From Plantactinospora alkalitolerans (GTDB lineage Bacteria > Actinomycetota > Actinomycetes > Mycobacteriales > Micromonosporaceae), in contig NZ_JADPUN010000190.1 of the NCBI RefSeq assembly GCF_015690345.1, positions 1-33,578 of the forward strand: 33,578 bases of DNA, given 5' to 3'. The translations under genes were made by a program, and so were the position numbers. The notes under the pieces are model-generated. The model was not told where the DNA came from and made no database searches. It saw only the letters and a program-made list of their open reading frames with translations. This document shows, in pieces, positions 11,170 to 21,719 of the stretch. The stretch's first letter is position 1. Every line of letters starts with the position of its first letter.

Positions 11170-12909
11170 TCACCGGTCGTGCAGCGGCACCCGCCACACG
11201 ATCGTGGTACCGGCCGACTCACCCGGGCCGACGTCCAGGTCGCCGCCCCACCGCTCGGCGCGTTCACGCAGGTTGACCAGGCCGCCCCGGGCATGTGCCG
11301 GGTCGGCGCCCACCCCGTCGTCGGCCACCCGGATAACCAGCTCACCGTCGCGCACGTCCACGCCCACCGTGACCCGGCTCGCCCGGGCATGACGTACGAC
11401 GTTGGACAGTGCCTCGCCGAGTACCGCCAGCAGGTCGGGGCGGAGCGGGTCGGGTACGGCGCTGTCGACCGGGCCGGACATCTCCAGCGTCGGACGGTAT
11501 CCCAGCGCCTCGGCACAACCGGCGACCATGTTCCGGATCTCGGTACGAAGTGCGGCGGTCATCGGTGTACGAAGTTCGAAGATCGCCCGCCGGATGTCCC
11601 GAATCGTCGAGTCCAGGTCGTCGACGGTGGCGTCGAGCCGCTGCCGCACCTCTGCCCGACCGGCCAGCGGCGCCACCGTCTGCAACTGCAACCCCATCGC
11701 GAACAGCCGCTGGATCACGACGTCGTGCAGGTCCCGGGCGATTCGCTCCCGGTCCTCGAGGACCGCCAGCATCTCCCGCTCCTCCTGCGCCCGGGCCCGT
11801 TCCAGGGCCAGCGCCGCCTGGCCGGCAAAGGTCGCCAGCAAGGTGAGCTCGACGTCGCTCTCGGCTCCCTGGCCGGCCGGAAACGCGACCACGAGCACGC
11901 CGTGCAGGGCGTCACCGGCCGTCAGTGGTGAGATCAACGCCGGGCCGCCACCGACCGGAACCGGCCAGGGCGCCGCCTTCGCCAGGCTCTCCACCACGGC
12001 CTGCCTGCGTCGGGTCACCGGCTCGATGAAGTCGGTGTCGGCGGCGACCAGAACCGTACCGACCAGGTTGTCGGTGTTCCCGCCGTCCGGGACCTCGGCC
12101 ACCTCGACCGTGAACTGTCCGGCCTCGTCGTCGTAGAGCAACACCAGAGCCACCTCCGCCTCGGCGACCTCGCGGGCCCGTCGGGCGATCAACCGCAGCG
12201 CGTCGGTACGGCGGACCTCGCCGAGCAGCACGCCGGTGATCTCGGCAGCCGCAGCCAGCCAGCGCTCGCGCCGACGCGCCACGGCGAACAGGCGGGCATT
12301 CTCGATGATCACACCGGCGGCGGCGGCCAGCGCCACCACGATCTCCTCGTCGTCGTCGGTGAACTCCGACGCGCCCTGCTTCTCCGCCAGGTAGAGGTTG
12401 CCGAACACCTGGTCCCGGATCCGTATGGGCGCACCGAGGAAACCGTGCATGGGCGGATGGTTCGGCGGGAAGCCGTACGACTGCGGATGCCTGGTGATGT
12501 CCGGCATACGTACCGGACGTGGGTCGGCGATGAGCAGGCCGAGCACACCCCGGCCGTGCGGCAGATCGCCGATCCGGGCCTGTGTCCGCGCGTCGATGCC
12601 GTGCGTGATGAACTCGGTCAACTGTCGATCGGGCCCGACGACGCCGAGTGCCGCGTACCGGGCTCCGGCCAGCCGGCACGCGGCAGCCACGATCCGCTCC
12701 AGGGTACTGCGCAGATCCAGGTCGGCGCTGAGCCCGACGACCGCGTCCAGCAGCGCGCGCAACCGCTCCCGGCTGGTCACCACCTCACCGACCCGGTCCA
12801 GCATCTCCTGGAGCAACTCGTCCAGCCGAACCCGGGACAGCGGTGTGATGCCCAGCGACGGAGCCCCGAATTCGGTCTCGTCCGACGGCACCCGCGACGG
12901 CTCGGTCAC
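11170..12909 (-). CDS. devS: DevS/DosS-type heme sensor histidine kinase
   Basis: A 579-residue cytosolic sensor kinase, almost the same length as M. tuberculosis DevS. Domains: GAF-A about 65-205, GAF-B about 230-375, HisKA_3 about 385-445, HATPase about 490-575. GAF-A holds [20 protein letters not shown]; His151 (NHPPM) is my candidate for the proximal heme ligand of DosS/DosT. The phosphoacceptor is His395 in ARDLHD, the number used for DevS. The ATPase has the N-box (Asn503), DDGVG at 530-534 and [10 protein letters not shown] at 542-551. In mycobacteria this kinase senses O2, NO, CO or redox state and phosphorylates DevR; the partner here is very likely the product of 21081-21719. It follows the phosphoketolase gene by 50 bases, separated by a strong hairpin that may attenuate read-through. 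Confidence 0.93.
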
Positions 12910-12923
12910 CCGGCGATGCTACG

Positions 12924-12951
12924 CCGCCCCTGCCCCGCACGGCAGGGGCGG
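12924..12951 (-). terminator. Hairpin between phosphoketolase and sensor kinase genes
   Basis: CCGCCCCTGCC and GGCAGGGGCGG form a perfect 11-bp stem around a 6-base loop, directly after the phosphoketolase stop and 14 bases before the kinase start. It may be a terminator or an attenuator that lowers kinase expression relative to the enzyme. Confidence 0.65.
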
Positions 12952-12959
12952 GCACCGGC

Positions 12960-20902: not shown

Positions 20903-21031
20903 TACTCGGAGGTCCTGCGGTCGGCAATCCCGATCACCTCGTCGACCTCGCGGATCGGCTACGGCCAGCCTCGTTGCCCATACCCGGTCCGGATGGAAGT
21001 GGGCCCGGGTTCCCGTCCGTCCGCTGGTAAC

Positions 21032-21074
21032 GGGACCTTCGGCCCTGTGCCCTCCGAGGACCAGCCGGTACAAA
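21032..21074 (+). promoter_or_regulatory. devR promoter with DevR box, leaderless start
   Basis: GGGACCTTCGGCCC (21032-21045) is followed by a TACAAA box (21069-21074), 6 bases and ATG 21081. If transcription starts at that A, the box is centred at -42.5, the position known for DevR-activated promoters. No Shine-Dalgarno sequence is at a working distance, which fits a leaderless message. Positive autoregulation is inferred. The rest of the 313-base divergent region holds the doxX sites and nothing else clear. Confidence 0.6.
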
Positions 21075-21080
21075 AGAATG

Positions 21081-21719
21081 ATGATCCGTGTCTTCCTCCT
21101 CGACGACCACGAGGTTGTCCGCCGTGGCCTGGCCGACCTGCTGCACGCCGCCGGTGATATCGAGGTGGTGGGCGAGTCGGGGTTGGCGCGTGAGGCCACG
21201 ACGCGTATCCCGGCGTTGCGGCCGGATGTGGCGATCCTCGACGCGAGGTTGCCCGACGGCAGTGGAATCGACGTGTGTCGGGACGTCCGTACCGTCGACT
21301 CCTCGATCCGGGGCCTCATTCTCACCTCCTATGAGGACGATGAGGCGCTGTTCGCCGCGATCATGGCTGGCGCCGCCGGGTACGTGCTCAAGCAGATCCG
21401 TGGCACCGACCTCGTCGACGCGGTCCGCCGGGTGGCGGCGGGCCAGTCACTGCTCGACCCGGCGGTGACCCAGCGGGTGCTGGAGCGGATCCGCAACGGC
21501 GTCGAGCAGCCGCGCGAACTGGCGACGTTGACCGAGCAGGAGCGCCGGATCCTGGGACACGTCGCCGAAGGGCTGACCAACCGCGAGATCGCCGCGAAGA
21601 TGTTCCTCGCGGAGAAGACCGTGAAGAACTACGTGTCGAGCCTGCTGGCGAAGCTGGGACTGGAACGTCGTACCCAGGCCGCTGTGCTGGCCACCCGGCT
21701 GCTCGGCCAGCGCTCGTAG
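21081..21719 (+). CDS. devR: DevR/DosR-type response regulator
   Basis: A 212-residue NarL/LuxR-family regulator: receiver domain about 1-120, linker, and a LuxR helix-turn-helix about 147-208. Counted from MIRVFLLDDHEVVRRG, the acidic pair Asp8/Asp9, phosphorylation site Asp54, Thr82 and Lys104, and the DNA-contacting Lys179, Lys182 and Asn183 (AEKTVKNYVS) all fall at the same numbers as in M. tuberculosis DevR. The family activates hypoxia, NO and CO response genes. The partner kinase is very likely the DevS-type protein at 11170-12909, 8 kb away on the other strand. ATG 21081 is chosen over ATG 21078 from promoter spacing; the difference is one Met. Three bases separate it from the convergent amidohydrolase gene. 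Confidence 0.94.
   Translation: MIRVFLLDDHEVVRRGLADLLHAAGDIEVVGESGLAREATTRIPALRPDVAILDARLPDGSGIDVCRDVRTVDSSIRGLILTSYEDDEALFAAIMAGAAGYVLKQIRGTDLVDAVRRVAAGQSLLDPAVTQRVLERIRNGVEQPRELATLTEQERRILGHVAEGLTNREIAAKMFLAEKTVKNYVSSLLAKLGLERRTQAAVLATRLLGQRS

Follow-up and report, generated by a model that had tools for sequence, protein, structure and literature searches.

A DevR-type dormancy island with a predicted phosphoketolase-acetate output

The DNA analyzed here, contig C422, is 33.6 kb long, is called the window below, and comes from a draft genome (9.2 Mb, 441 contigs; family code f1, which we infer to be Micromonosporaceae). It contains a 10.5-kb island encoding a DevS-type kinase, a phosphoketolase (xfp), an acetate kinase (ackA), a phosphate acetyltransferase (pta), an Acg-family oxidoreductase, a membrane-type protein and the response regulator DevR. 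Judged from its sequence, the island is probably a compact dormancy locus of the DevR (DosR/OsdR) kind, with a phosphoketolase-acetate shunt as its metabolic output. The regulator, the kinase and the DNA box are of the known DevR/OsdR kind; what appears to be new is a boxed phosphoketolase-acetate module that is repeated in several actinobacterial orders. The genes run from left to right as DUF952(-), devS(-), xfp(-), ackA(-), pta(-), acg(+), the membrane-type protein gene(-) and devR(+) (Table 1). The gene families had been assigned in an earlier note on this DNA, and all of those assignments hold against Pfam and NCBIfam models. Phosphoketolase and acetate kinase are encoded together, and xfp, ackA and pta each score above the cut-off of their family model.

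The earlier note had also pointed to box-like sites before xfp and in the divide between pta and the nitroreductase gene (acg). Using the core of the published DosR box, GGGHCNWWNGNCCC (consensus as quoted in the available text of PMC2947987), we found perfect boxes at both places and a third before devR. These are the only perfect boxes in the window, and every one is intergenic. Counted by strand, there are six matches, whereas 100 dinucleotide shuffles averaged 0.58 and never exceeded 4. The devR and acg sites share one 14-mer, read from opposite strands; 16 bases of the devR site are identical to the predicted OsdR site for SCO5979 (PMC5069765, available text). The start codon of xfp is GTG; an alternative in-frame ATG, with a GGAGG stretch resembling a ribosome site, is at 15488.

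The box before xfp recurs in relatives. Two sets were sampled. One comprised named loci, for which the 80 best out of 297 relatives were taken; the other comprised 92 places in genomes of the window's order (12, plus the top 80 from a scan that found xfp in 191/298 genomes). A first count gave a perfect box in 69/172 xfp upstream regions, where 0.55 would be expected. For a second count we included the window, seven loci from its genus, the second xfp copy of the window's own genome and locus L245. We dropped L036 (short upstream), L242 (partial xfp) and three loci with upstream regions identical to others (L115 to L065, Micromonospora lutea; L116 to L048, Catenuloplanes japonicus; L213 to L037, Micromonospora sp. 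NBRC 107566), which gave 179 distinct upstream regions. These three duplicates all belong to f1, the basis for the presumptive assignment of f1 to the Micromonosporaceae and of genus g2 to Micromonospora or its vicinity. Within 300 nt upstream of xfp, 71 of these 179 have a perfect box (0.7 in shuffles, 1 with the pattern read backwards), and 99 have a box with at most one mismatch (12.85 and 17, respectively). The median distance from box to start is 73 nt. Boxed loci in the named set (35/79) come from 13 genera and one Dermatophilaceae metagenome-assembled genome (MAG), and span the Micromonosporales, Micrococcales, Propionibacteriales and Streptosporangiales.

The box is not confined to one kind of phosphoketolase. 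A perfect box precedes 41/90 xfp genes of type A (at least 74.5% identical to the window's xfp), 7/23 of a middle group and 23/66 of the rest; restriction to a single type was ruled out, as two types carry the box. In the window's genus, type A xfp is present in 2/7 genomes, type C in 7/7, and DevR was found in 5/7. Perfect boxes lie before both type A copies there and before none of the seven type C copies (the window genome's own copy and those of six other genomes), so control seems to follow one paralogue. Type C xfp is boxed in Micromonospora-type genomes. A universal stress protein gene precedes the type C copy of the window's own genome (L112, C99:33820-36144; 56% identical), which lacks a perfect box. 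One further xfp locus, L055, is on a contig labelled as a Spirochaetaceae MAG; its xfp is 81% identical to the actinobacterial one and is followed by ackA, and the contig is probably misassigned.

The acetate genes carry boxes in their own right. Genes for pta were found in 61/81 genomes of the same family, and the best 40 of 60 places outside the window's genome were sampled, 39 of them with enough upstream sequence. A perfect box precedes pta in 6/39 (0.15 expected) and a box with at most one mismatch in 11/39 (2.45 expected). Ten of these 11 boxes, six perfect and four with one mismatch, lie 48-52 nt before the start codon, and in the fetched stretches around these ten boxed pta-ackA operons neither xfp nor a DevR orthologue was found. 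Because these operons have their own boxes at 48-52 nt, without xfp or DevR in the stretch, pta-ackA is predicted to be a separate DevR target in part of the family.

Box and regulator also tend to occur together. In genus g2, presumably Micromonospora or a close relative, a box with at most one mismatch precedes type C xfp in all 38 tested genomes with DevR (38 of the 40 g2 genomes that have it; 33 of the boxes are perfect) and in 1/3 without it. The corresponding counts in g4 are 3/4 and 0/3. Pooled, a box is present in 41/42 genomes with DevR vs. 1/6 Micromonosporaceae genomes without detected DevR (Fisher p 2e-5, for genomes that were picked after DevR absence was known, include several drafts and are, where related, non-independent). 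For perfect boxes in g2 alone the counts are 33/38 vs. 1/3 (p 0.07). A FastTree tree of xfp requires at least 25 gains or losses of the box. A tree-aware comparison of "devR beside xfp" with "perfect box" over 20 independent pairs gave 7.1 pairs that changed in the same way, 0.1 in the opposite way and 12.8 with no difference.

The genes of the island keep company in relatives, the point that the earlier note had wanted checked; a lack of such conservation would have counted against its reading, and this outcome does not. DevR (at least 60% identity) is encoded near xfp in 54/179 loci, 42 of which have a perfect xfp box; 29 of the 71 boxed xfp loci have no DevR nearby. Across 173 xfp loci and the window, with genes called by a simple codon model trained on the window's genes, 185 of 195 perfect boxes are intergenic. 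The families that most often follow a box are xfp (66), Acg (47) and DevR (38), and no box was found before nine neighbor families (6, 7 and 10-16; 19-26 loci each). The membrane-type protein family (Table 1) is behind a perfect box in 5/10 loci. The same gene set recurs in differing orders: xfp / pta-ackA-devS / devR, without a perfect box, in L245; acg, membrane protein and xfp-pta-ackA in a row in L037; devR-devS-acg / xfp-ackA in L163; and acg, devR, a universal stress protein gene and xfp-ackA in L119 and L122. In the genus mate G371 (L277) the set is acg, devR, devS, a universal stress protein gene, a gene for an ADP-forming-type coenzyme A (CoA) ligase-GNAT fusion, a doubtful open reading frame, ackA and a boxed xfp. 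The fusion gene, between the universal stress protein gene and ackA (L277:4102-6798), encodes an 898-amino-acid CoA ligase with ATP-grasp and succinyl-CoA-ligase-like domains joined to a GNAT acetyltransferase; a link to protein acetylation is possible.

The sensor and the regulator retain the residues expected of such a system. DevS is the only kinase of its kind in its genome at E ≤ 1e-30. Its first GAF domain (GAF-A) aligns with structure 2vzw (E 1.5e-51), which we take to be DosT, and with DevS/DosS structures (4ynr, E 2.6e-46). This alignment preserves the proximal His and the distal Tyr (presumably H149 and Y171 of DosS), and the position of DosS E87 is Gly, as in DosT. The phospho-acceptor His of the HisKA_3 domain is at 395. 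Sensing of O2 or redox state by heme, as the earlier note had it, finds support as far as residues go (proximal His, distal Tyr, and Gly at the E87 position), and heme-based sensing of O2 or nitric oxide (NO) by DevS is supported at that level. The best solved match of the island's DevR is M. tuberculosis DevR (3c3w, E 4.2e-73), without gaps over residues 1-209. D54, T82, K104, K179, K182 and N183 are all kept; we take D54 to be the phospho-acceptor Asp and K179, K182 and N183 to be DNA contacts. DevR has one match at 100% in its own genome, and 61 further DevR-like regulators are 34-47% identical among the matches listed.

Several observations weigh against DevR control of the shunt. Perfect boxes are lacking in 108/179 xfp upstream regions and 33/39 pta upstream regions, and are absent before xfp in Dactylosporangium (6/6) and Nonomuraea (6/7). 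Of the six Dactylosporangium loci (L012, L019, L021, L022, L039 and L080), four nevertheless have Acg-family genes close to xfp. In family f8, probably Mycobacteriaceae, none of 20 xfp loci has a box even with one mismatch, although 19 of the 20 genomes have DevR (E ≤ 1e-60). A box before the leading gene of the f8 operon was also sought by walking along the operon and was found in none of the 20 loci. Genome G264 keeps a perfect box without detected DevR, and L277 has a box before xfp and no perfect box before devR. The tree-aware test agrees in direction but is of modest strength, with p ranging from 0.002 to 0.22 (median 0.016). An experimentally grounded weight matrix, built from 26 OsdR sites in Table 1 of PMC5069765, places the devR box first among sites of the window and the pta/acg box second. 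The xfp box scores just 4.3, because the 26-site set has no T at that position. We set the matrix aside in favor of the DosR consensus and retain the weak score as counter-evidence. Box 2 is closer to acg than to pta (Table 1), which makes an effect on pta less certain. In the genome as a whole, the box read backwards has 101 matches (49+52) vs. 47 (25+22) for the real box. The comparison of lineages shows a predicted DevR output that differs among them, with xfp boxed in Micromonospora-type genomes and unboxed in the probably mycobacterial f8.

The 47 strand-wise matches in the window's own genome, all exact, were counted as 30 sites. Because the backwards pattern outnumbers the real one, the signal is local and positional, without a genome-wide excess, and outside the window the box does not rise above background and may be below it. 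Of the 27 sites outside the window, 19 fall within predicted genes, so no wider regulon was read from exact boxes. One perfect intergenic box on contig C248 (L100, locus position 3018) lies 101 nt before a gene, which may be a further target outside the island.

If the island works as its parts suggest, heme in the first GAF domain of DevS would let this kinase sense O2, NO or redox state, and DevS would phosphorylate DevR. Phosphorylated DevR on the three boxes would raise expression of devR, xfp (with devS), acg and probably pta-ackA, as suggested by the boxes and their conservation; Acg and the membrane protein are likely co-targets. Since devS probably shares the xfp transcript (the gap is 50 nt), induction would also raise the sensor. 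Xfp would convert fructose-6-phosphate or xylulose-5-phosphate to acetyl phosphate and a sugar phosphate without producing NADH. Acetyl phosphate would then yield ATP and acetate via AckA, or acetyl-CoA via Pta. The chemistry of the Xfp, AckA and Pta families is established enzymology. The gain would be ATP and two-carbon units while respiration cannot accept NADH.

Feedback of acetyl phosphate on DevR, of either sign, is possible. M. tuberculosis DosR is phosphorylated at D54 in vitro by acetyl phosphate (50 mM), which in that setting raises transcription of its targets (PMC12919924, available text), and acetylation of K182 is reported to inhibit DNA binding (a title cited in PMC6456759). Both D54 and K182 are present in the island's DevR. 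A bolder and, in our view, unlikely proposal is that a switchable phosphoketolase fermentation forms the core of the DevR regulon outside mycobacteria, with its product acetyl phosphate setting DevR activity either as the D54 phosphodonor (a self-locking ON state) or through K182 acetylation (a brake). Low oxygen would in that case leave a metabolic memory within the regulon itself.

It is also improbable, slightly more so, that the boxes serve devR, acg and stress genes, and that xfp and pta-ackA are ordinary sugar-use genes in a stress neighborhood rather than DevR targets. The frequency of xfp in the order, the many upstream regions without a perfect box and the position of box 2 nearer acg than pta are in keeping with this. 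However, the box lies directly before xfp at a regular distance, also in the boxed loci without DevR nearby; separate pta-ackA operons have their own boxes at 48-52 nt, and their ten fetched stretches show neither xfp nor a DevR orthologue; and neighbor families lack boxes. About as doubtful is that DevR control is real and serves acetyl-CoA supply, carbon saving or acetyl-phosphate signaling rather than ATP from acetate. Acetyl phosphate can take either route, pta stands beside ackA in the window, xfp-pta-ackA are consecutive in L037, and the CoA ligase-GNAT fusion of L277 could point to protein acetylation. The company that xfp keeps, ackA in 31/173 loci vs. pta together with ackA in 2/173, favors the acetate/ATP branch. 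That the boxes belong to another NarL/LuxR-type regulator is very unlikely: the motif is short and GC-rich and the genome has the 61 further DevR-like regulators listed above, but the same 14-mer lies before devR itself, the 16-base devR site is the published predicted OsdR site of SCO5979 (PMC5069765, available text), the putative DNA contacts K179, K182 and N183 are kept, and box and DevR mostly occur together across genomes. DevR control of a phosphoketolase-acetate shunt is the reading that we prefer.

Table 1. Genes and DosR/DevR boxes of the island in the 33.6-kb window.
Feature	Position	Strand	Remarks
DUF952 protein gene	10706..11083	-	Pfam PF06108; 86 nt behind devS
devS, DevS/DosT-type sensor kinase	11170..12909	-	two GAF, HisKA_3, HATPase_c; 50 nt behind xfp
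xfp, phosphoketolase type A	12960..15392	-	XFP_N, XFP, XFP_C and NCBIfam phosphoketolase above cut-off
DosR/DevR box 1	15548..15561	.	~155 nt before xfp GTG, 60 nt before alternative ATG, 14 nt behind ackA stop
ackA, acetate kinase	15576..16706	-	Pfam PF00871, TIGR00016
pta, phosphate acetyltransferase, long DRTGG form	16703..18784	-	NF004167, TIGR00651, DRTGG; overlaps ackA start
DosR/DevR box 2, pta/acg divide	18969..18982	.	~185 nt from pta, ~75 nt from acg
acg, Acg-family FMN oxidoreductase	about 19057..20055	+	NF047509, 294 bits vs. cut-off 199
Small membrane-type protein	20111..20767	-	DoxX-like by eye
DosR/DevR box 3, before devR	21032..21045	.	35 nt from devR start
devR, NarL-type response regulator	21081..21719	+	Response_reg and GerE; sole close orthologue in genome

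The membership of the DUF952 gene in the island, judged by its position only, is uncertain. The DoxX identity considered for the membrane-type protein was unconfirmed, with no Pfam match. Elsewhere in the window, a 1226-amino-acid protein (27140-30820) with alpha-1,3-glucanase catalytic domains, CARDB and F5/8 type C domains is encoded; it is unrelated to the island.

If DevR switches on xfp, ackA and pta, this would be a testable answer to how aerobic actinomycetes supply ATP during oxygen loss. It would mean substrate-level phosphorylation from sugar phosphates without NADH in Micromonosporaceae and in members of other orders. Actinoplanes and Micromonospora, which are antibiotic producers, may meet low oxygen in dense mycelium, and such a switch could matter for fermentation.

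According to the earlier note, the DevR regulon of M. tuberculosis is not known to contain a phosphoketolase. Gerasimova et al. reportedly studied mycobacterial dormancy regulons in 2011. The island is like the M. tuberculosis DevS/DosT-DevR (DosR) regulon in its full-length DevR orthologue, its DosT/DosS-like GAF-A domain, the same box and an Acg-family target. It differs in that xfp, ackA and pta are in the island and boxed, and in that devS follows xfp, apart from devR. Phosphoketolase is absent from the main text of a paper on M. avium DosR (PMC11876180), and phosphoketolase, acetate kinase and phosphate acetyl(transferase) are absent from the main text of the OsdR paper (PMC5069765). A literature search found no report of DevR control of a phosphoketolase, though supplements were outside its reach and absence from print is unproven. 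R. equi is known to own xfp (available text of PMC2947987 and PMC6852188).

The OsdKR regulon of S. coelicolor is another DevR-type pair outside mycobacteria with a near-identical box, and its predicted targets likewise include universal stress protein and nitroreductase genes; unlike here, they also include pyruvate phosphate dikinase and nitrate reductase (PMC5069765, available text). In Mycobacterium massiliense, a universal stress protein, phosphoketolase, DevR and a sensor kinase are in consecutive table rows (MMASJCM_2512-2515), and the authors mention anaerobic or hypoxic survival. In contrast to the island, the available text names no DevR box or DevR control of xfp, and ackA and pta are outside those rows (PMC4263727). 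The chemistry is that of the phosphoketolase pathway of Bifidobacterium and heterolactic bacteria, in which Xfp makes acetyl phosphate and AckA makes ATP (PMC6456759, available text; solved Xfp relatives). There the pathway is the main fermentation route, whereas in this aerobe it is apparently kept in reserve, controlled by an oxygen switch.

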